A DNA stretch of 42,483 nucleotides from an uncultured Bacteroidota bacterium (GTDB lineage Bacteria; Bacteroidota; Bacteroidia; Bacteroidales; WCHB1-69), in contig CADBTU010000029.1 in the NCBI GenBank assembly GCA_902797625.1, positions 1 to 42,483 of the forward strand, in the 5' to 3' direction. Positions 23,013 to 34,315 of the stretch are shown piece by piece (the first letter of the stretch is position 1; every line of letters begins with the position of its first letter). A program made the position numbers and the translations under genes. Below the pieces are notes generated by a model. It saw nothing but the letters and a program-made list of their open reading frames with translations, did no database searches and had not been told where the DNA came from.

Positions 23013-23954
23013 CTAAAACTCCCAAAGATCGCTCTCGAATGTACGAAGTTTGTTTGTTATTTGTTCGGAAGCTATACGCTGGTCGCGTGAATTTGATATA
23101 TAATCTGCAATATCACGATCATAAACATTTGACTCCTTGTAAATCAAACTTGAAAAATCACGCTTCCATGTAATAAGATCGTCATAAGAGAGACGTTGTG
23201 CATTATTTTTTACATTGAAGACCTCTTGCTTAGCAAGATATGGTCTCAATTCATTGTAATAAATATACCCAACTTTCTTCTTAACTTTTTTACTTCCAAC
23301 ATCTTCTGGATCTTGCTCCACATCATCGTAATAAGAATTGGTATTAGTATTCTTTTCGTATTCGAGCATGGGTTCTATTGCAAGAATTTGACATCTAAAC
23401 GTTGAATATTGCTTATCAAAATACCATATCTCTTTTATGTTATAAGAGATAATTTCTCTAGCTTCAAATTGTTGAATCAATTCTTGAGTACCAATTTCTT
23501 CCCCTGAATCAAGATCTATCTGAGCAATAGTTGAGACATTTGTAAGAATTCCTTGTAGCTCATCTCGAGAATAAGGAAGAGTACACATCTCATCCATATA
23601 TAAAGGAAGAACATTATCAGTATTTTCTGGGTTTGAAAAATCTATTGCATCAAAAATAAGTTGACCAAGACTTCTCCATGTTCCTCGTGTTTCTGTTGGA
23701 AAATAAAGTGGATGGTTAACTTTCTCACGCAAGTCAATAGTGCGCCAAATTGTCCAGTAATAGATAACATCCGCTTGACGAACAGGAGGAAATGCTACTG
23801 GATCAGAAAAATCACCTACATCTACTTGTTGCCAAACTGTCTCTACTGGCTTACGCACAGGTTGTTCCAATGTACTTCCGCCTAATTCGTCATCTTGTGC
23901 AAACGTTAAAATAAAGGCGAATAGAAACGCTGATAATACTGCAAACTTTTTCAT
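23013..23954 (-). CDS. gldN: Type IX secretion system protein GldN/PorN
   Basis: This is a 313-residue periplasmic protein with a signal peptide (about 1-20, ILTFAQ). GldN/PorN forms the ring with the lipoprotein GldK/PorK under the outer membrane, linked to the GldLM motor. Family marks include DVIYYWTIWRTIDLREKVNHPLYFP (about 64-88), the WRSLGQLIFDAI segment, YNIKEIWYFDKQYSTFRCQILAI (about 174-196) and the late GYIYYNELRPYLAKQEVFN. Length is normal. It is the last gene of the porP-gldKLMN operon, 16 bases after gldM, and is followed by a terminator hairpin. Confidence 0.95.
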   Translation of the reverse strand: MKKFAVLSAFLFAFILTFAQDDELGGSTLEQPVRKPVETVWQQVDVGDFSDPVAFPPVRQADVIYYWTIWRTIDLREKVNHPLYFPTETRGTWRSLGQLIFDAIDFSNPENTDNVLPLYMDEMCTLPYSRDELQGILTNVSTIAQIDLDSGEEIGTQELIQQFEAREIISYNIKEIWYFDKQYSTFRCQILAIEPMLEYEKNTNTNSYYDDVEQDPEDVGSKKVKKKVGYIYYNELRPYLAKQEVFNVKNNAQRLSYDDLITWKRDFSSLIYKESNVYDRDIADYISNSRDQRIASEQITNKLRTFESDLWEF

Positions 23955-23970
23955 AATTTTATTTTTTATT

Positions 23971-25599
23971 TTATTTAATACGAACTGAGAATTCGTCTAA
24001 GGTTCGTGGTCCTGCTTCAGAAGAAACTTTAATATCACTTATATAGACAACTGTATTTGCTGGAGCTTTTTGAATTGCCATTTTAGCTTTATCAGTTAAG
24101 GCTCCTCCTTGGCAAACGATAGCTGGTTCTTCCACACCTTTAGATACAAGTATCACTCGGAATGATGTAACACTCCACTTCAAATCGTATGCAAAATCTT
24201 CTCCCATTGTAGCTCGAACTATAGGGTTAGCAAGCAATTCTGCTTTAGAACGTTTACCTCCACGAATATTAGCACCAAGAACGGCACGTGGATCTGGAAC
24301 ACGTTTTACACGAAATGTAGTGTTTCCTAAAGTTTTTGTTGATTCTCCAACTTTTGCAGCAACAGAAGCTTGTACTGTTTTTCCAATCAACGAAGTTGGT
24401 ACAGATACATTGAACTTTCCGCCACCTTGAGATGCCGCTGAACAACCTGGAAATGAAACACTTAACTTATCAGCAGCAACAGGACCTGATACTGAAATAG
24501 GGTTAGCTATTCCTGCATACAACACGTTCATCTTATCAGCTGCTATTGTTGCTGAAGGCGAGAGAACCGTGTATTTGTCGCTAAAACCGTAATACTTAGG
24601 TTGTCCGTTAGGATCTAAAATTTTAATCAAACCCGCGTAACGTTGTTCTCCTGTTGCGCCTGTACCAATTTTCAATTTCACAAGTCCATTTTCTCCTTCA
24701 AGTTTAGTTGCCCCAGAAAGACCTTCCTCTGTAAGGGTATCAACACCCATTTTATAGTAAACCTCTGGTGTTTGTTTGGTATCGTATGCAGCAACGATGA
24801 TATCAGCTTCATAAGCATCTCCTGAGAACACCATCTGAGATTTTGGAATTGAACGTCCACTAACTTGGTCGAACTTAAAGTCATCAGCACTGATAGAAGA
24901 TTTTAAATAGTTGAGCATCATTGATTCAGCGTTTTTAACTTCACCAACCATTTTGTTCAACAATGTAACACTTGCAGCTGCAATAATGTGATCAAAATTG
25001 TGTTGTTCCCAAGATTCTTTGTGGGTATCCTTCCAATAAGTTGCATCTACATTAAGAGCCATACCTTTCTCAAGTCGTTCTTGATCTTCTTTCTTAGCTA
25101 ATTTAAGAACGCTTTGCTTATACTTATTTATTTCCTCTTTCAGTTTTTTAGCATTGCCTTGTCTGATCATGAAATCTGTAGGAATGTCAAAGTTGTCTTT
25201 CTTTGTGATTGTGGCAACGGTTTTCAGTTTTTTAACAGTTTTTCCATCATCTGTTTTCACTTCTGCAAGAGAATCCCCATCCACTTCAAAAATAAGATCA
25301 TTACGCATTTTTTCGATGAATCTCACCATAGCATCAGACTCTTTTTTAAGAATTTGAGCTTTTCCGTAAGCCTCCTCTACTTTTGCACCTAGAATCGTTT
25401 TTTGACCAATAAACCATTGATAATCGTTAGCATTTTGGTTTGCCGCTATATTTGTTGATGTTACCAAAGTATCATCAACAACCACAAAGGCGTTCAAGAT
25501 TTCTGCTGACACATTCAATGCCAACATGGCGGTGTAAACCAAATACATCATCTGAATCATTTTCTGTCTCGGGGTTTCCGGACAATTTGTTGCACCCAT
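23971..25599 (-). CDS. gldM: Type IX secretion system motor protein GldM/PorM
   Basis: This is a 542-residue inner-membrane protein. It has one helix near the N-terminus (about 15-40, MIQMMYLVYTAMLALNVSAE) with R11 just before it and a buried E33. A large periplasmic part follows, with coiled-coil and then four beta-rich domains. GldM dimers sit inside the GldL pentamer; proton flow turns this motor and the periplasmic arm passes torque to the GldK/GldN ring. The C-terminal domain (about 330-542, with GGKRSKAELLANPIVRATMG and the end DEFSVRIK) matches the family. The start MGATNCPETPRQKM is the conserved one. Confidence 0.96.
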   Translation of the reverse strand: MGATNCPETPRQKMIQMMYLVYTAMLALNVSAEILNAFVVVDDTLVTSTNIAANQNANDYQWFIGQKTILGAKVEEAYGKAQILKKESDAMVRFIEKMRNDLIFEVDGDSLAEVKTDDGKTVKKLKTVATITKKDNFDIPTDFMIRQGNAKKLKEEINKYKQSVLKLAKKEDQERLEKGMALNVDATYWKDTHKESWEQHNFDHIIAAASVTLLNKMVGEVKNAESMMLNYLKSSISADDFKFDQVSGRSIPKSQMVFSGDAYEADIIVAAYDTKQTPEVYYKMGVDTLTEEGLSGATKLEGENGLVKLKIGTGATGEQRYAGLIKILDPNGQPKYYGFSDKYTVLSPSATIAADKMNVLYAGIANPISVSGPVAADKLSVSFPGCSAASQGGGKFNVSVPTSLIGKTVQASVAAKVGESTKTLGNTTFRVKRVPDPRAVLGANIRGGKRSKAELLANPIVRATMGEDFAYDLKWSVTSFRVILVSKGVEEPAIVCQGGALTDKAKMAIQKAPANTVVYISDIKVSSEAGPRTLDEFSVRIK

Positions 25600-25654: not shown

Positions 25655-26401
25655 CTATTTCATTGCAGCAAGCATATTGCCATAAACGCTGCTCAATTTA
25701 GATATGTTGTTGGTAAGTTTATCTAATTCTGTCTTAAAGTTAGATGTCTGTTCTAACGATTTAGATGTTTGTTCATAAGCAGAAGCTAATTGAGTAACAG
25801 CAGTTGTAGCTCTTTTAACGCTTTCGATATAAGATGCTGTTGCACCGCCATCTGTTTCAAGAGAAGCTGCAACTTTATCATATTTTAACGTAAGATTACG
25901 AACAGATTCAGAAGCTTTTTGTAAACTGCTTGTATAGTTGTCTGTAGATACAACTGCGTCAGATACTCCAGCTAATTTTTGTGCATTTTCGCTGAGATTA
26001 CGCATACCTGCAGCAAGACTTTCCATCAATTCAGGGCCAATCTTAGCTTCATCTAACATTTTATCTAATGCTTGTGTTGAAGTAAGAGCATTATTTTTAA
26101 TTTGTTGTCTTTTTTCACGACGTGAAAGTTTTTCGCTATTTTCGATTTCAATATCAGTACCAGTTGCCAACTCAGGATATACAAGAGCCCAGTTATACTC
26201 CACATGAAGAGGTTCAAAAGCTGAGAAGAAGAATATAATAGCTTCAATACCCATACCTAAGATAAGCATTATATCGGCACCAGGTAAGTGCAAAATTTTG
26301 AACAACGCACCGATAATTACCACGGAAGCACCCCAGCCATACAACTTGGCCATACCGTTTTTGTAACCTTTAGATCTTACTATTTGATCAATTTTACCCA
26401 T
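25655..26401 (-). CDS. gldL: Type IX secretion system motor protein GldL/PorL
   Basis: This is a 248-residue inner-membrane protein. Two membrane helices form a hairpin near the N-terminus (about 20-36 and 42-62), and a buried Glu (E53, in LGMGIEAIIFFFSAFEP) corresponds to the glutamate implicated in proton use in Flavobacterium GldL. The long cytoplasmic tail (about 70-248) is helical, with repeated Ser/Thr-rich coiled-coil segments (VSDAVVSTDNYTSSLQKAS). Five copies surround the GldM dimer. The gene sits 55 bases after gldK and 55 before gldM. Length is slightly shorter than some orthologues but the core is complete. Confidence 0.95.
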   Translation of the reverse strand: MGKIDQIVRSKGYKNGMAKLYGWGASVVIIGALFKILHLPGADIMLILGMGIEAIIFFFSAFEPLHVEYNWALVYPELATGTDIEIENSEKLSRREKRQQIKNNALTSTQALDKMLDEAKIGPELMESLAAGMRNLSENAQKLAGVSDAVVSTDNYTSSLQKASESVRNLTLKYDKVAASLETDGGATASYIESVKRATTAVTQLASAYEQTSKSLEQTSNFKTELDKLTNNISKLSSVYGNMLAAMK

Positions 26402-26456: not shown

Positions 26457-27887
26457 TTAGTAAACGTGAGAAGCACTCTTGCTCTTATTATCACCCTTTT
26501 GACGTCCCATATAAGATTGAACGTTTCTGAAACCTACGTATGATTTACATGTATCTTGATACTCGTATGTCCTCGCATAAACTGTTGTATAGTAACTAAT
26601 ATCTTTCCAAGAGCCTCCACGAATAACTTTTCTTTTTTTCATAGGAGAGTCGTCTTTTGTAGCATAATAACGATACTCAGGATTCATATCGTGTGTGAAA
26701 TTTGTTGCAGACTTATCAAAAGCATCTTCGCACCATTCTGCAACGTTACCACTCATATCAAACAAACCCCAATCGTTTGGATGATAATGGGCTACGATGC
26801 TTGGATAGAAGTTGTCGTCGGCTATGTAGTTACCGCGTTGTGGTTTGAAGTTACTCAAGAAACATCCATTGCGATTTGTTGTATAAGGACCTCCCCAAGG
26901 GTAGGTAACTCCTGGATTTCCACCACGAGCTGCCCACTCCCATTCTGACTCTGTTGGTAAGCGGAATTCGTGTTCTTGTGCATATTCTTTAGTTGCTAAC
27001 CAAGACATACGAAGTTGGGAACGCCAACTTGAGAACGCTTTTGCTTGACGCCAGCTGACTCCCACTACAGGATAATTGTCGTACTGAGGATTTTGAAAAT
27101 AATTCAAAACCATCGGTTCGTTGTATGAATATACAAAGTCGTGAGCCCAGCATAACGTATCTGGATAGATATTGACAACTTCGTGTTTTATAAATCTTTG
27201 TGAACCATTGCCAAGACTACTTGGACGATTAGAATAGATACCGCCAAGATCACTTCCTTCTTTATCAAATTCTTTGTATGAAGCTCCAAAATTTTCTGGG
27301 TCTTTTGGATCTCTATAATTTCTATAATCGAACCACCAATATTCGTAATTAAGCATGGAAACATTCAAGCGTTTTCCTTGATAATGGTAGAAACGGGTGT
27401 TCATTTTATTGAAAAGCGGAGATAACGCTGATTGAACTTCTTCATTATCAGAATCCCAAGGGATTTTTTCTTTCCAGTTAATTAACTTAGGTTCTATTAT
27501 TTCACCTTCATTTTCTCCTTTTGTATATTTTAGGTAGTGACCATATTTCTCAGCTTCAGCAACTTCTGCATCACCAAGCATAACGTGGGCTATAGAGTCT
27601 CGTACCCAATATACAAATTGACGGTACTCATTATTTGTGATTTCAGTTTCGTCCATCCAAAAGGCCACAACCGAAACGTTCTTCGCTTGATGATTCATCG
27701 CAAAGGGAACGTCTTGATCTCCTGCTCCCATCAGATAGTGTCCTGCAGGAATATATACCATTCCGTATGGATCAAGGTCGAGAACATCTGGTCGGTCTTT
27801 AACACCTACTAATTGTCCGTCTCCTGTATTTTTACACGACACCGACAAAACTAAAACCGCTGCAAGAAAAATAATTACCCGTTTCAT
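26457..27887 (-). CDS. gldK: Type IX secretion system ring lipoprotein GldK/PorK
   Basis: This is a 476-residue lipoprotein with a lipobox LSVSC ending at C18. The mature protein carries a formylglycine-generating-enzyme-like (SUMF1) fold: IPAGHYLMGAGDQDVPF (about 47-63), FWMDETEITNNEYRQFV, GVSWRQAKAFSSWRS, RLPTESEWEWAARGGN, NVAEWCEDAF and the late VIRGGSWKDISYYTT. In this family the fold is structural and not known to be catalytic. PorK makes the large periplasmic ring with PorN attached to the outer membrane. It follows porP by 51 bases. Confidence 0.96.
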   Translation of the reverse strand: MKRVIIFLAAVLVLSVSCKNTGDGQLVGVKDRPDVLDLDPYGMVYIPAGHYLMGAGDQDVPFAMNHQAKNVSVVAFWMDETEITNNEYRQFVYWVRDSIAHVMLGDAEVAEAEKYGHYLKYTKGENEGEIIEPKLINWKEKIPWDSDNEEVQSALSPLFNKMNTRFYHYQGKRLNVSMLNYEYWWFDYRNYRDPKDPENFGASYKEFDKEGSDLGGIYSNRPSSLGNGSQRFIKHEVVNIYPDTLCWAHDFVYSYNEPMVLNYFQNPQYDNYPVVGVSWRQAKAFSSWRSQLRMSWLATKEYAQEHEFRLPTESEWEWAARGGNPGVTYPWGGPYTTNRNGCFLSNFKPQRGNYIADDNFYPSIVAHYHPNDWGLFDMSGNVAEWCEDAFDKSATNFTHDMNPEYRYYATKDDSPMKKRKVIRGGSWKDISYYTTVYARTYEYQDTCKSYVGFRNVQSYMGRQKGDNKSKSASHVY

Positions 27888-27938: not shown

Positions 27939-28982
27939 TTAGTATCTATTCTTATAAATATATCTTGAATTTCCGTATCCAGAGAATACTTCTGGTTTAA
28001 AAATATCGAAGCAATAACGCACAACCACCTCAACGTCACCAAAACTTCTATGCTTCTTATATCCTAAGGAATTGGCAGTAAATCCATACGCAATACCAAC
28101 ATCAAGTCCTTTCAAATATACATTAGAAGAATTGTAGAATGGGCGTGCGCCAAACGTGAGCGAAATAGCATCTTGTAAGCGATATCCTATACCTCCCCAA
28201 TAAACTCCATTATAACGCGCTAACAACAAAATGTCCCACTGAAACTTTTTATAATCTGTTTTTATTAATGTTTGAGGTAATATCTCCCAGTTTGGATTAA
28301 AAGGTAAAATCCATGTGTAACCACCGTGAAGATACAGTTGTGAAGACCTACGAGGACCTCTCTCTCCTGAAACACGAAGTACTTGATTTTTATCTAAAAG
28401 TGCTGCTATTTGAGTGATTCCTGCACCAACATACCAATTTTCAGCTTTATAAAATAGACCAAAATTAAAGTCTATATCCAACACCGACTCGCTCAAATTT
28501 TGTAAAGTAGGATCACCCTCCGTTGTTGGACGAAAGTTTTTATTTTCTATAGATTGATTGAGTAATGAAACTTGCGCTCCAATTCCTAATGACCCTCCTC
28601 CAATTCGCAGTTTGTAAGAATATCCAAACTTAAATCCAGTATTTTTATAAAATCCTAACTGATCGCGAACCAACGTTAATCCTAATGAACCATGCAACTT
28701 TTTAAGATATGATTCAATGCTAAATAAGAAATCTTGTGGAGCAGTACGAAATAGGGAATCTGTGCTTTTCATAGAGGAAGCATCTCCCCAACCCATATAT
28801 TTATTGTTATAGTCAGCTGTAAAACACAATGTGTTACTTTGCTCTCCGATACCTCCTGCATTATAATAGGAAGTAACCCACGGAAAAAAAGTAAATTGCG
28901 CGTCGTCTTGAGCGAAGCTAAACCCTGAAATTAACATCGCCAAGAACATTACAACTCCTATCTTTCGTACTTGTTTTATCAT
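27939..28982 (-). CDS. porP: PorP/SprF family type IX secretion outer-membrane protein
   Basis: This is a 347-residue outer-membrane beta-barrel with a signal peptide (about 1-25, ending FSFAQ). Family features are the FFPWVTSYYNAGGIG region near the mature N-terminus (in place of the common NPAYAG), repeated GxxxxYKLRIGGGSLGIGAQ-type strands, and the end FGDVEVVVRYCFDI. PorP-type barrels bind the ring or the exported substrates of the T9SS. The frame is open to 29021, but the ATG at 28982 (MIKQVRKIGVV) gives a normal signal peptide, so I chose it. It is the first gene of the operon and has a long structured leader. Confidence 0.9.
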   Translation of the reverse strand: MIKQVRKIGVVMFLAMLISGFSFAQDDAQFTFFPWVTSYYNAGGIGEQSNTLCFTADYNNKYMGWGDASSMKSTDSLFRTAPQDFLFSIESYLKKLHGSLGLTLVRDQLGFYKNTGFKFGYSYKLRIGGGSLGIGAQVSLLNQSIENKNFRPTTEGDPTLQNLSESVLDIDFNFGLFYKAENWYVGAGITQIAALLDKNQVLRVSGERGPRRSSQLYLHGGYTWILPFNPNWEILPQTLIKTDYKKFQWDILLLARYNGVYWGGIGYRLQDAISLTFGARPFYNSSNVYLKGLDVGIAYGFTANSLGYKKHRSFGDVEVVVRYCFDIFKPEVFSGYGNSRYIYKNRY

Positions 28983-29273
28983 ATCTCGAACATTTTGAAT
29001 TCTAATATAAATACCTAACAATCAAAACGTTACATAACACATTTGCATTCTTATAAAAATACGTTAAATTCTTCTACGTTATAGAATTGCAAAAAGTTAC
29101 ACAACTTTTCTTACTTCATTTTTTTGAAGTGCCAAAAATAGCATATTTTTCTTTACTATAACTATCTATGAAAAGACAAAATAAAAAAAAATATAAACAA
29201 TATACTTATTTTATTGATTTTTAGATATTTACACAAAACAAACACTGTATCTTATTGTAAATAAATGATTTAA
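28983..29273 (-). promoter_or_regulatory. Leader region of porP-gldKLMN with promoter box and hairpins
   Basis: On the minus strand a TATTTTTG box (29133-29140) lies about 150 bases before the porP start. Transcription from it would begin close to a perfect 6-bp hairpin at 29113-29130 (ACTTCA / TGAAGT, 6-T loop on plus), then pass a second perfect 7-bp hairpin at 29092-29109 (AAAAGTT / AACTTTT, loop ACAC). The remaining leader of about 100 bases has no gene. I see no clear terminator for the upstream large gene between 29141 and 29273. Confidence 0.5.
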
Positions 29274-32200
29274 CTAAAACAGTGCATTAATTGTAACGTT
29301 TCCCGAGTGAACAACTTTGTGCTTTGGTACCGCACGACCTGAGTAAATAAAGGCTAATTGAAGATATTCTGTAATGGAAAATTTAAAATCTGCATCCCAA
29401 ATTAAATTTCTACCAATTGAGAGCCCATTCAACATATTGTAAGAAATCGCAGAGTTTTCTCCTGCATAACCTGATATATCAACGTATTGGGTTTGGATTT
29501 GCAGTAACCCCTTGTTTTTCAATCTATACGAGTAAGAAAGTTGAATTTGGAATGTATTTATCTTTTCTTTTCCTCTTAAATTTTTTAACATTAAGTAGCC
29601 TCCTGATAACACAGTATTATGTATATTGTTTATCTGCAATCTAAATTCTTGTTCTATGTTGTAACATTCTATCACGAAATTGCGACTTAGGAAAGATGAA
29701 GTATTACTTGTTTGTTTGTATCTAAAAATTGATTGTATAAAAAGTTGCTCTATAGGCAGACTTTTTAGTGTAACTTCTTGCATTTCAACAACACTGTTCT
29801 CAAAACCATAATATAGAAATTGTTTGTTGATATTTCTTTGAACCATAAACTCAAATGCAAATTTTGAGGAATTGTCGTTAAATGATAAATTATTCGACAA
29901 ATATGATGTTTGTGCAATAACGTTGGAATCGTTATCTTTTAATGATATTGGAATTAGTTTTTGTGAAAGGTGCTTAAGATTAGTACGAAAATTTGTTGAA
30001 TTCGAAAATCTTGACACAAACTTCCTAAACCCAGATTTATTATGCCAAACAACTGCTGGGCGAATTAAAATGCTCTGTGAAAAGGTACCGTTGTATGTAT
30101 TTAAGTATTCATTATTGGCAATCCAAACTTTTATATACTCTGCCTGATCTTGAAAAACTGCAAGTTCAAACTCTTCTATCTCTTCTATTCCGTTGTTGTT
30201 ATAATCGTTCCAAATATGCGTACCTTGACCTTTCGCTACCTTTAAGTATGTAAATATTTTCTTTTGCTCCATTCCACTCCCAGCTTCATAATAGGTATTT
30301 AAAATTATAACATTCTTAAAAAATCGTCCAGTATAAGACAGATTACCTACAAAATAGTGCTCCCCTGAAGCATTTTTTAATGTATCGTAAAAAGTTTGGT
30401 ATCTGTAAATAATATTTGTTTGAAAAGATTGATTTTTAACTCTTTGAAGGTTGAATTGTGTTTTTGCCTCGTGAATCTGCGTGTTTTTATAAAAATCAAT
30501 AAGATTTGGTAAAAAATCTACTCTATTCCGATATTGTATAGAAAAATTAGCAATAGATATACTGCTATTTTTCAGTATTGTAGTAAAATCATTAAAAAAA
30601 TAACCATTTGCTCTTAATAATAAATTATAATTATCAAGAAACTTATTATATTCTAAAAGATTTTCAATTCCTACGGAAAATTTCCCAATATCTTCAGATA
30701 GATTAAGATAAGATGTGAGATAACGTGTTTTTTGTATAGAATCAGAAGAGATTAAAAAACTTGTTTTGGATTTTAGATTTAAATATTTCCATTTATCGGA
30801 AGTAACTATCTCATTTCTAAGACCTTTAGAATTATTTGGGCGTAATAAAAAATTCAAAGAGTAACTAATATCATGTATTTTTGATTTTGAAACTTTTAGA
30901 AGTGAATTCAAAAGCCATTCTGATGTAGCAGTTGAATAATCTGCCGCAAGGTTAAAGTCGCGAGCAAATTCAATGTCTCTGAAAGACTCAAAAGGAGCGA
31001 AATTTTTATGTACAAACTGTAGCGAAATTGAAGAAAATAAAAACCACGGAACAGAATCTCTTTTATAATAAAATTGTTCTAAATTATTAGCAAGTAAGTT
31101 ATAAGAAATTCCCAGATCATCTTTTTCATCTAACTTCGAAAAGAGATTTTTATCACAATGAGAAAAAGCAACTTCTCCTTTAAGATTCGTATTGGGACGA
31201 AATTTTGTATCAAAACTAAATGCAAGCATTTGCTGTGTTGAAGGAGGAGTAAGCGATAATGCCGCTTCGTAATCGCCTTGAGGAACACCATTTATTGGCG
31301 CGACCCATTCAAATACACGCCCATTAATATTATTATTCTTTAATCTATAATTACCATTATTTGCGCCTACATAAGAAAAAGAGGGAGAATATATATCTTC
31401 TTCTGAAAGTGTAAACTTATATATTGTATATATAATATTATTGTGTAAAGTATCATATTTTTTATAATGAACTTGATTGGGCAAAAATGACACTTGTTCA
31501 AAAAAGTTATAGAGATAATTGGAAGAGTTATCGCCAGCATTAGATAGAAACATTTTGTGATTGTTCGATAATTCTGGTTGTATAGACTGATTTTTCATAT
31601 CTTGTTCATGGAAGAAATTGACACAAAATATTGTTGAGAATTTACCTTTGGCTTCTAATTCATTATTTGAAAAAATCCCATAACGTACAAAATGTCTATC
31701 TGAATATTCAAACTCAACAACAAATCTCTTCTCTTTTGTAACAAGAATTTTGGGAGTAAAAGTAATCTCAGAGGTATTATAATCAATAGTGTAGTCGTTA
31801 TCTTGCCCTCGCGTTAACTGCCGACCGTCGAGATAAACTCTTTCAGAGCCAGCAACGATAGACATTGATATTTCATTATTATTTCCATAAAGTCTATAAG
31901 GTCCTTGAACTCCGTTTTGAACATTAAGATTTTGTCGCGAAAACTTACCTTTTGCAACACCTCCGCCGAAAGAATTTTTTATCTTAACTTTTTCTTTGTC
32001 AACAGACTTAACATTCGCCTGAAGTCCCAAAAAATTTCTATTAAATTTTAAAAAGTCATCATTTGAAAAATTTTCAATAATATCGCCAGCTTTAATTTCT
32101 GCTCTATCGGCTATCTTTAATGTAATAAAAATACTATTTATATCTTGTATAAATTGAGTATTTCCTTCTGGTTGAATAGGTATATTTTTATCTGAGATAG

Positions 32201-32720
32201 AGGCTATCACTTCAATATTTTCTGACAATTTTCCCGACATTTGTAAATTAAGCGAAGAATTCAGAACTATATCTTGGTTCGTTCCTGTAGATATTCCACG
32301 TGAGATATAGCCATTAGTTTGTAGTTTGTGAGTTGAAAATGCATCTCTAAAAGATACAATAGGAATATCAACCGTTTGGTGAACTGAACGGCGAGGTTCA
32401 ATTATTGATGGTGATTTATGAAAAATAGATTTAGAATAATCGGCAGAGAGTGTTATATATTCTACAACGACAGACTTTTGCAGAAGATTTGTATCAATGA
32501 TAAAAATAGTAGCCGAAATTGGGTCCAAAAGATATTGGAAATTAGTAACATTATGAATTTTAAAAGATTGAGGAAGAATGGAAAGCGTATCAAATTTTAG
32601 TATTAAAGTATCAACATAAATATTTTTTTGGCGAAAGGTATTTTTATCGTACTGCGCCACAGAGCGCAGACTTAGCAGCAAAATCAGGAAGCAGAATATG
32701 TATCTGAATTTTTTTTTCAT
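29274..32720 (-). CDS. Very large predicted outer-membrane protein, unnamed Bacteroidota family
   Basis: This is a 1148-residue exported protein with a signal peptide (about 1-23, LLSLRSVAQ). The N-terminal third has a conserved block from YISRGISTGTNQDIVLNSS (near 140) through SGKLSENIEVIASISDKNIP to IPIQPEGNTQFIQDI. Next comes VYLDGRQLTRGQDNDYTIDY followed by SEITFTPKILV, a small beta domain also seen in other Bacteroidota surface proteins. The rest is a succession of amphipathic strands ending FIYSGRAVPKHKVVHSGNVTINALF, consistent with a large beta-barrel. I recall similar unnamed proteins of this length across the phylum but know no function. The frame extends 66 bases upstream; I chose the ATG at 32720 because it starts the signal peptide and follows the promoter box. 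Its position before porP suggests a link with T9SS. Confidence 0.7.
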   Translation of the reverse strand: MKKKFRYIFCFLILLLSLRSVAQYDKNTFRQKNIYVDTLILKFDTLSILPQSFKIHNVTNFQYLLDPISATIFIIDTNLLQKSVVVEYITLSADYSKSIFHKSPSIIEPRRSVHQTVDIPIVSFRDAFSTHKLQTNGYISRGISTGTNQDIVLNSSLNLQMSGKLSENIEVIASISDKNIPIQPEGNTQFIQDINSIFITLKIADRAEIKAGDIIENFSNDDFLKFNRNFLGLQANVKSVDKEKVKIKNSFGGGVAKGKFSRQNLNVQNGVQGPYRLYGNNNEISMSIVAGSERVYLDGRQLTRGQDNDYTIDYNTSEITFTPKILVTKEKRFVVEFEYSDRHFVRYGIFSNNELEAKGKFSTIFCVNFFHEQDMKNQSIQPELSNNHKMFLSNAGDNSSNYLYNFFEQVSFLPNQVHYKKYDTLHNNIIYTIYKFTLSEEDIYSPSFSYVGANNGNYRLKNNNINGRVFEWVAPINGVPQGDYEAALSLTPPSTQQMLAFSFDTKFRPNTNLKGEVAFSHCDKNLFSKLDEKDDLGISYNLLANNLEQFYYKRDSVPWFLFSSISLQFVHKNFAPFESFRDIEFARDFNLAADYSTATSEWLLNSLLKVSKSKIHDISYSLNFLLRPNNSKGLRNEIVTSDKWKYLNLKSKTSFLISSDSIQKTRYLTSYLNLSEDIGKFSVGIENLLEYNKFLDNYNLLLRANGYFFNDFTTILKNSSISIANFSIQYRNRVDFLPNLIDFYKNTQIHEAKTQFNLQRVKNQSFQTNIIYRYQTFYDTLKNASGEHYFVGNLSYTGRFFKNVIILNTYYEAGSGMEQKKIFTYLKVAKGQGTHIWNDYNNNGIEEIEEFELAVFQDQAEYIKVWIANNEYLNTYNGTFSQSILIRPAVVWHNKSGFRKFVSRFSNSTNFRTNLKHLSQKLIPISLKDNDSNVIAQTSYLSNNLSFNDNSSKFAFEFMVQRNINKQFLYYGFENSVVEMQEVTLKSLPIEQLFIQSIFRYKQTSNTSSFLSRNFVIECYNIEQEFRLQINNIHNTVLSGGYLMLKNLRGKEKINTFQIQLSYSYRLKNKGLLQIQTQYVDISGYAGENSAISYNMLNGLSIGRNLIWDADFKFSITEYLQLAFIYSGRAVPKHKVVHSGNVTINALF

Positions 32721-32774: not shown

Positions 32775-32782
32775 TATTTTTG
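32775..32782 (+). promoter_or_regulatory. -7 promoter box of transketolase/ECF unit
   Basis: TATTTTTG, a full match, lies 15 bases before the ATG at 32798. Its last base also ends an in-frame TTG (32780-32782), so a start there is unlikely. Confidence 0.55.
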
Positions 32783-32797
32783 CCAAAATTTTTTGGC

Positions 32798-33751
32798 ATG
32801 TATAACATCGAAGATATCACAAAGAAAGACACCCGTTCGGGATTTGGCGACGGCTTGGTAGAAGCTGCTGCAAGTAATAATAAAATTTTCGCTCTTACCG
32901 CTGACGTTACAGGAAGCGTTAAGATGGGGGATTTTAAAACTGCTCACCCTGAGCGTTTCATTCAAACAGGTATTGCTGAGGCTAATATGATTGGTATCTC
33001 TGCTGGATTAGCATTAAGCGGTAAAATTCCTTTTGCAAGCGCATTCGCAGGGTTTATTTCTGGTAGGGTATATGACCAAATCAGAATGACTGTTGCCTAT
33101 TCCAACCTAAACGTCAAAATTTGCGCATCACACTCTGGAATAACAGTGGGAGAAGATGGTGCAACTCACCAAATGATAGAGGATTTAGGACTTATGAGAA
33201 TGTTGCCTAATATGGTGGTGCTAAGTCCTTGTGATTATAATGAAACTAAGCAAGCCACCATTGCAGCGGCAAACTATAACGGTCCTGTTTATTTGCGTTT
33301 TGGACGTCCTTCTGTACCTAATTTCACCCCTGCAGACAAACCATTCATTATTGGAAAGGCTGATATTTTAGAAGAAGGTAATGATGTTACAATTGTTGCA
33401 ACAGGACATCTTGTATTTCCAGCTCTTCAGGCTGCCCACGCACTTGCTAAAGAAAATATTCACGCTGAAGTTATAAATTTGGCTACTATTAAACCGCTTG
33501 ATGAAGAGACTATTCTAAACAGCGTTAAGAAAACCAGGTGTGTGGTAACTGCTGAAGAACATCTCTTAAATGGCGGTATGGGTGAGGCTATTTGCCAATG
33601 CTTGAGTCGCAACTACCCCACCCCAATTGAAATGATTGGCATCGACAACCGTTTCGGAGAGAGCGGCACCCCCGAAGAACTTATGGCTTTCTTTGGTCTT
33701 GACAAAGAACACATTATGGCTGCTTGTAAAAAAGCTATCAATAGAAAATAA
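32798..33751 (+). CDS. Transketolase, C-terminal subunit (split form)
   Basis: These 317 residues cover the pyrimidine-binding and C-terminal domains of transketolase, which moves two-carbon units between sugar phosphates in the non-oxidative pentose phosphate pathway. Seen are GFGDGLVEAAASNNKIFALT near the start, GIAEANMIGISAGLALSGKI (about 57-76, containing the catalytic Glu that contacts thiamine diphosphate), ICASHSGITVGEDGATHQ, YLRFGRPSVP and the C-terminal EEHLLNGGMGEAI. The N-terminal, diphosphate-binding half (about 280 residues with GDG and NGN motifs) is missing. In many genomes that half is the adjacent gene; here the upstream neighbour is divergent, so the partner must be elsewhere. 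DXS-like enzymes are an alternative but fit less well. Confidence 0.88.
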   Translation: MYNIEDITKKDTRSGFGDGLVEAAASNNKIFALTADVTGSVKMGDFKTAHPERFIQTGIAEANMIGISAGLALSGKIPFASAFAGFISGRVYDQIRMTVAYSNLNVKICASHSGITVGEDGATHQMIEDLGLMRMLPNMVVLSPCDYNETKQATIAAANYNGPVYLRFGRPSVPNFTPADKPFIIGKADILEEGNDVTIVATGHLVFPALQAAHALAKENIHAEVINLATIKPLDEETILNSVKKTRCVVTAEEHLLNGGMGEAICQCLSRNYPTPIEMIGIDNRFGESGTPEELMAFFGLDKEHIMAACKKAINRK

Positions 33752-33757
33752 ACACCT

Positions 33758-34315
33758 ATGCCAGAAATTACCGACGAATTCATACTCTCTCTTTTCAATA
33801 ATGAAGCTACCAAAGAGAAAGCTTTTGAACTCCTTCTTAAGAAATATCAGAAGCACATTTACTATAGTGCTCGTCGCATAACAACCATTCACGAAGATGC
33901 TGACGATGTAAGCCAAAACGTTTGCATTAAAATATGGAAAAATCTTGATAAATTTAGAAACGAATCAAGTCTAAAAACCTGGATTTCAAGAATTTGTATC
34001 AACGAAGCTCTTTCGTATATTGAAAAGAAAAAACGCTTATTAAATCTATCTGATGATAGTTACACCGACTTCCTATTAGTTACTCACGCTGACACTAACA
34101 CACTTACTCCAAATCAGATAGAACAAATCCTTCAAGAGGAAATCATAAAATTACCTCCAAAACAACGTGCTGTATTCACAATGAGGTATTATGATGAAAC
34201 TCCTTATGCTGAGATGTCGGAAATTTTCAACACCTCTGAAAGTGCGCTCAAAGCTTCTTATCATTTTGCTGCAGAAAAAATTAAAAAAAATATTTCTGAG
34301 CGTTTAACCTTTTAA
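33758..34315 (+). CDS. ECF-type RNA polymerase sigma factor
   Basis: This is a 185-residue sigma-70 family protein of the extracytoplasmic function group. Region 2 (about 20-90) has LLKKYQKHIYYSARRI, the core-binding HEDADDVSQNVCIKIWKNL (about 45-63) and the -10-binding WISRICINEAL. Region 4 (about 125-178) has LPPKQRAVFTMRYYDETPYAEMSEIF and the recognition helix SESALKASYHFAAEKI. There is no 1.1 or region 3. It starts 6 bases after the transketolase half and precedes a small membrane protein, the usual place of an anti-sigma factor. Its target promoter cannot be read. Confidence 0.92.
   Translation: MPEITDEFILSLFNNEATKEKAFELLLKKYQKHIYYSARRITTIHEDADDVSQNVCIKIWKNLDKFRNESSLKTWISRICINEALSYIEKKKRLLNLSDDSYTDFLLVTHADTNTLTPNQIEQILQEEIIKLPPKQRAVFTMRYYDETPYAEMSEIFNTSESALKASYHFAAEKIKKNISERLTF

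Follow-up and report, generated by a model that had tools for sequence, protein, structure and literature searches.

The window, a stretch of 42,483 nucleotides from an uncultured member of the Bacteroidales, carries on its minus strand, at 29274-32720, a gene for a protein of 1148 amino acids counted from the ATG at 32720, which is here called BigOMP, an outer-membrane protein of an unnamed family. An earlier note on this DNA, made from the letters alone, had placed an exported protein of this length directly upstream of porP-gldKLMN on one strand, and the open reading frame, the signal stretch and the profile matches all agree with that description. The features of the locus are as follows.

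29274..32720, minus strand: BigOMP gene, large outer-membrane protein of an unnamed family (open reading frame, profile searches and relatives)
32655..32720, minus strand: predicted signal peptide, BigOMP residues 1-22 (hydropathy and conserved A-Q site)
32454..32609, minus strand: module copy 1, BigOMP residues 38-89 (hhalign to SprA 666-723)
32118..32312, minus strand: most conserved block, BigOMP residues 137-201, GISTGTNQDIVLNSS...IPIQPEGNTQ (family alignment)
31686..31916, minus strand: module copy 2, BigOMP residues 269-345, GSERVYLDG..L.RG..DY.IDY...EITF (matches SprA 663-756 and phage tail-type proteins)
31230..31379, minus strand: second conserved block, BigOMP residues 448-497 (family alignment)
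30171..30206, minus strand: EF-hand-like loop DYNNNGIEEIEE, BigOMP residues 839-850 (pattern D.[ND].[ND]G.....[ED])
29277..29306, minus strand: C-terminal strand of BigOMP ending in F, of the outer-membrane beta-signal type (terminal F common in the family)
27939..28985, minus strand: porP/sprF family gene (TIGR03519 and PF11751, over cut-off)
26457..27887, minus strand: gldK/porK (TIGR03525, 525 bits, over cut-off)
25655..26401, minus strand: gldL/porL (TIGR03513, over cut-off)
23971..25599, minus strand: gldM/porM (TIGR03517, over cut-off)
23013..23954, minus strand: gldN/porN (TIGR03523, over cut-off)

The genes thus run in the order BigOMP, porP, gldK, gldL, gldM and gldN, with 288 bp separating BigOMP from porP (ATG starts); the gaps further along the run, as far as gldN, are 16-55 bp. 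Across eight loci the BigOMP-porP gap is 220-366 bp (longest-ORF starts), and, with gaps of this size set against those inside the run, a common operon of BigOMP and gldKLMN is not supported and probably does not exist. A sigma-70 scan of 28800-29500, with a model that is ill-suited to Bacteroidota, gave no promoter-like site. Divergently upstream of BigOMP, at 32780-34315 on the plus strand, lie open reading frames that we take to encode the C-terminal half of a transketolase and then an RNA polymerase sigma factor; the same pair stands upstream of the BigOMP homologue in another locus (L004). Elsewhere in the window, an open reading frame at 1299-1763 on the minus strand, presumably of a C5-type DNA methyltransferase, stops just past its PCQAFS motif and appears cut short, and is followed by one at 514-1332, also on the minus strand, which we take to encode an HNH-type nuclease.

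Two alignments were used for the family, one (A1) built with six relatives from metagenome-assembled genomes, with profile matches counted at E 0.001, and one (A2) of 66 sequences with 20-44% identity to the BigOMP of the window. The predicted signal peptide is suggested by a mean hydropathy of 2.3 across 13 residues starting at residue 8 and by the A-Q site at residues 22-23, Q23 being near-invariant in the 66 relatives. The family is spread across the whole phylum Bacteroidota, with carriers in 174 of 296 phylum genomes and in 71 of 198 Bacteroidales genomes by the A1 profile, and its members are about 1160 residues long (median about 1158, 5th-95th percentile 1138-1210, 106 sequences). The family profile has one match in the genome of the window, and a single match is likewise the rule in 63 of the 71 Bacteroidales carriers and in 50 of the 53 phylum-sample carriers that belong to the window's class; outside this class two matches per genome are common, possibly representing one gene in pieces or two genes. 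One Bacteroidales locus (L161:1-19201) has, in addition to its main BigOMP gene, a short piece of the family some 3.3 kb further downstream. The most conserved residues are 141-200, 261-340, 441-500 and 821-860, the N-terminal half being strongly conserved phylum-wide, and the block from GISTGTNQDIVLNSS to IPIQPEGNTQ, already singled out as conserved in the earlier note, is among the best-conserved stretches of the family. The EF-hand-like pattern occurs in 78 of the 106 sequences and falls in the conserved 821-860 region; to judge from its sequence, this loop may bind calcium. A terminal F is found in 99 of the 106 sequences, that of the window included.

No family name for BigOMP was found in Pfam, NCBIfam or PDB, its best Pfam and NCBIfam matches lying far under the cut-off and no PDB chain matching by sequence, either with the protein or with the 66-sequence profile. 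The view that it is not an obvious SprA is borne out by comparison with the SprA/Sov profile TIGR04189 (2319 positions, cut-off 200 bits), which gives no match at E 1; identity with SprA is ruled out by this profile, and SprA is present elsewhere in the genome, as a separate gene on contig C111. At the same E 1 threshold BigOMP contains neither the Pfam plug nor the TonB-barrel domain of TonB-dependent receptors (SusC), no Peptidase C25 Pfam match as in the PorU sortase, a protein of similar length, and no C-terminal sorting domain of the TIGR04183 type as in cargo of the type IX secretion system (T9SS). It has no LptD-type Pfam match and no match to PF11751/TIGR03519 of the PorP/SprF family, which the neighboring gene does match. 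PG2092 (known as Plug) and PG1850, of 419 and 302 aa, lack the length to be its counterparts. Plasmid records contain no match to the family. In viral contigs, 13 loci have short matches, one of which was examined, a phage-type contig (L107:3823-7127) with two open reading frames bearing the DYTIDY module of the BigOMP family and SprA; two further scans gave no family match. In the portions covered of six papers (PMC12611786, PMC10994853, PMC8754138, PMC5053529, PMC1887533 and PMC7906972) there is no protein identifiable with the BigOMP family, an unnamed family being hard to search for.

For co-occurrence, SprA was scored by TIGR04189, GldN by PF19841 and the sorting domain by TIGR04183. SprA is matched in 228 of the 296 phylum genomes (227 above cut-off), and all 174 BigOMP carriers have such a match, 173 of them above cut-off; none of the 68 genomes without a match carries BigOMP, and 54 of the 228 matched genomes are without it. 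The single exception (G269), whose genome is a single contig and encodes GldN and BigOMP but no SprA over the cut-off, has a sub-cut-off SprA match (E 9.3e-4) that is perhaps a hit on BigOMP's own module, and with stricter counting the figures become 173 of 227 and 1 of 69. Within the Bacteroidales, where 188 of 198 genomes have SprA, BigOMP is present in 71 of the SprA-positive and 0 of the 10 SprA-negative genomes (Fisher p 0.015), so that all 71 carriers have SprA. The family is accordingly not equally common in Bacteroidota lacking a T9SS, if the latter is scored by SprA. The SprA-negative Bacteroidales come from six families (f58, f2, f129, f132, f145 and f152), and because these lineages are few, the nesting within SprA genomes is suggestive, not conclusive. 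The control gene nrdJ is present in 185 of the 198 Bacteroidales genomes and in 8 of the 10 SprA-negative ones, indicating that the latter are not gene-poor in general, with the qualification that nrdJ, being near-universal, is unlike an accessory gene.

GldN is distributed otherwise. It is found in 71 of the 296 phylum genomes, all within the window's class (53 with BigOMP, 18 without), and is missing from 121 of the 174 BigOMP carriers, every one of them outside that class; within the Bacteroidales it is present in 184 of 198 genomes and in 69 of the 71 carriers (all except G369 and G398). The sorting domain, scored in 57 genomes outside the window's class, is present in 33 of 33 carriers, in 19 of 19 SprA-positive non-carriers and in 0 of 5 SprA-negative genomes. 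The BigOMP family thus goes with SprA and with sorting domains rather than with the known motor. In these same 57 genomes GldM is nowhere over the cut-off, with two weak partial hits; 52 of them combine SprA and sorting-domain proteins with the lack of a GldM over the cut-off, a T9SS whose motor is missing or unrecognised.

A link of BigOMP to the T9SS through its co-occurrence with SprA is likely. Since the family is almost confined to genomes with the T9SS pore, it is perhaps an optional and unstudied part of this system, and since most SprA-positive Bacteroidales (117 of 188) are without it, it is not a core part. The explanation that we favor, with about even confidence, is that BigOMP is an optional outer-membrane beta-barrel serving the SprA-based type IX system, as an accessory and not a core component. 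It would be exported by Sec, inserted by BAM and form a large barrel, of which the conserved N-terminal half (residues 130-500, with the beta-module found also in SprA) would meet a partner and the EF-hand-like loop would bind Ca2+. Most likely, BigOMP would receive or hold a subset of T9SS products, or aid translocon assembly, at the outer membrane; such an accessory role would explain how lineages have lost BigOMP yet kept secretion. The earlier note had likewise proposed an accessory component, of the translocon or of surface assembly, and had named co-occurrence with gldKLMN as a check: the former fits the optional distribution within SprA-positive genomes, and the latter holds for the Bacteroidales, but there is no tie to gldKLMN phylum-wide. 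If our explanation is true, a widespread family, unnamed in the databases searched, would be an outer-membrane part of the type IX system that has escaped study. According to section 5 of PMC5053529, a screen for T9SS components was anchored on P. gingivalis proteins, and a protein missing from P. gingivalis would not appear in a screen so anchored.

The gene neighborhood was surveyed at 106 loci (the window, L004-L008, 60 further loci and a second set of 40), taking in 61 of the 71 Bacteroidales carriers, window included, with ten on fragmentary contigs left out; the Bacteroidales part comprises 62 loci in 40 families, L008 being assigned to f1 from a FastTree tree that bears no support values. 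BigOMP has a T9SS locus at most about 8 kb away in 10 of the 40 families: it is near gldKLMN in f1, f85 and f141 (where in L046 only porP is visible before the contig end), near SprA in f97, f64 and f124, and near PorX and/or PorW in f136, f84, f68, f70 and also f141. In one genome (G330, f85) BigOMP, gldKLMN and SprA all lie inside 20 kb. The names PorW and PorX come from matches to NF052312 and NF052313 over the cut-off in five scanned proteins (three PorW; two PorX, one of them truncated) and, for the others, from similarity to these. The adjacency to gldKLMN is therefore not unique to the window's genome, and it is a local arrangement, found in three of 40 families: among the first six relatives, porP-gldKLMN is directly downstream of BigOMP in L008 and L009 and missing from the 10 kb downstream in the related L006 and L007, and in L004 and L005 the contigs end there. 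Ten of 40 families is more than chance would give, with P 7.6e-10 at an assumed chance rate of 1.6% per family and 4.7e-5 at 5.5%, values to be read in view of the shared ancestry of the families and of the choice of T9SS genes, which was made once the neighbors had been inspected, PorX and PorW having been recognised only then. The linkage near different T9SS loci adds modest support to the T9SS tie.

The same linkage can be read in another way, rather unlikely in our judgment, namely that BigOMP is a general-purpose outer-membrane protein for adhesion or uptake, whose nesting within SprA genomes and linkage would come from ancestry, the content of the genomes and synteny in general. The 117 SprA-positive Bacteroidales without BigOMP are in keeping with it, as is the behavior of nrdJ, which is within 8 kb of SprA or GldN in at least 3 of 107 families among the matches listed, as compared with 6 of 40 for BigOMP by direct survey (p 0.013); in the like-for-like comparison, BigOMP is near SprA or GldN in at least 5 of 44 families among the matches listed and nrdJ in at least 3 of 107 (p 0.047), the gene places having been read by eye and the 107 families counted by hand from tables. 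With only p 0.047 left by the like-for-like control, part of the T9SS linkage is general synteny, and the excess of BigOMP over an ordinary gene is modest. No neighbor of BigOMP is conserved phylum-wide. The genes gldKLMN, SprA and PorX/PorW within about 8 kb were found at 0 of the 40 loci outside the Bacteroidales, where profiles derived from Bacteroidales could miss distant ones. A general-purpose role is, however, at variance with the strong phylum-wide conservation of the N-terminal half, with the single match in the window's genome and most Bacteroidales carriers, with the lack of a TonB plug or barrel domain in Pfam, and with the make-up of the neighborhood itself, in which PorW, PorP and PorX are three of the seven neighbor groups present in at least four Bacteroidales families (7 of 20 are T9SS groups at the level of at least three families, gldK-L-M-N-porP belonging to a single locus). 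The PorP counted in f60 (L136, 3.2 kb from BigOMP) may be another PorP-like gene.

The commonest neighbor of BigOMP is waaA, present at 15 Bacteroidales loci in 11 families and placed divergently upstream in 14 (L047, L051, L052, L057, L060, L138, L139, L144, L153, L158, L160, L161, L168 and L169); one WaaA protein scanned had its best matches with the PRK05749 Kdo-transferase models, below their cut-offs. This pairing with the Kdo transferase WaaA would suit an envelope barrel of LPS biology, acting in transport, modification or surface packing, whose tie to the T9SS would come about through LPS, which can serve as an anchor of T9SS cargo. We regard such a role as decidedly unlikely, given that BigOMP has no LptD-type Pfam match, that waaA was found at 0 of the 40 loci outside the Bacteroidales and that, to our knowledge, SprA-negative Bacteroidota still make LPS.

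The accessory role in the SprA-based system has also to be weighed against closer kinship with SprA itself. BigOMP residues 38-89 align with SprA 666-723 (hhalign P 1.7e-4; best P 0.57 with reversed SprA) and residues 269-371 with SprA 663-756 (P 9.1e-6; reversed, 0.28), the latter module corresponding approximately to residues 690-780 of F. johnsoniae SprA in 6h3i; a weak, collinear match of residues 150-266 with SprA 199-305 (P 0.016; reversed, 0.5), from among nine regions compared, is a lead only. Eight of 40 relatives match TIGR04189 weakly (best 9.1e-9), the matches listed for carriers covering about 50-90 profile positions at 18-30 bits. The module is also present in phage tail-type proteins, and is thus no proof of descent from SprA. 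The two AlphaFold models, made from seven input sequences, are poor (full length, pLDDT 45 and pTM 0.39; the other, pLDDT 53). With the full model, Foldseek places SprA chains at ranks 1-3 and 5 with a TM of 0.19; with the N-half model, porins are best and SprA is absent from the best 50 rows, and the fold searches yield beta-barrels of no particular kind (VIA Z about 12-14, with an rmsd of 3.7-15 A). The models indicate a beta-barrel and nothing finer, and the very large barrel first proposed stands in these general terms, the full-length model being too poor for more. It is conceivable, but very unlikely in our estimate, that BigOMP is an ancestral second large T9SS barrel, of common origin with the N-terminal part of SprA; it would then move or seat a class of surface proteins for which SprA alone does not suffice, and would be kept also in lineages with SprA and sorting domains but without recognisable GldM/GldN. 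That it shares ancestry with SprA and is a second translocon of roughly half the size, as the two modules, the same-order match between them, the weak TIGR04189 hits and the Foldseek ranks might suggest, seems less credible still, with a module that is not diagnostic, a TM of 0.19 on a poor model and porins as the best hits of the N-half.

The accessory barrel that we favor is worth comparing with known systems. SprA, a 36-strand barrel with a lateral opening (PMC10994853, in the part covered), resembles BigOMP in being an exported, large outer-membrane protein of Bacteroidota, in sharing a beta-module of about 50-100 residues and in being present in nearly all BigOMP carriers, whereas it differs in size (about 2400 as against 1148 aa), in the lack of a full-length profile match and in being encoded by a separate gene. 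PorP/SprF (TIGR03519) is likewise a T9SS-linked outer-membrane protein, whose gene adjoins that of BigOMP, but it has only 348 aa and no sequence match to the 1148 aa of BigOMP. Finally, BamG of the F. johnsoniae BAM complex, described in the part covered of PMC12611786 as a FadL-like outer-membrane barrel that is an accessory of an envelope machine and set beside BigOMP here by description only, provides a precedent within the phylum for an accessory outer-membrane barrel.
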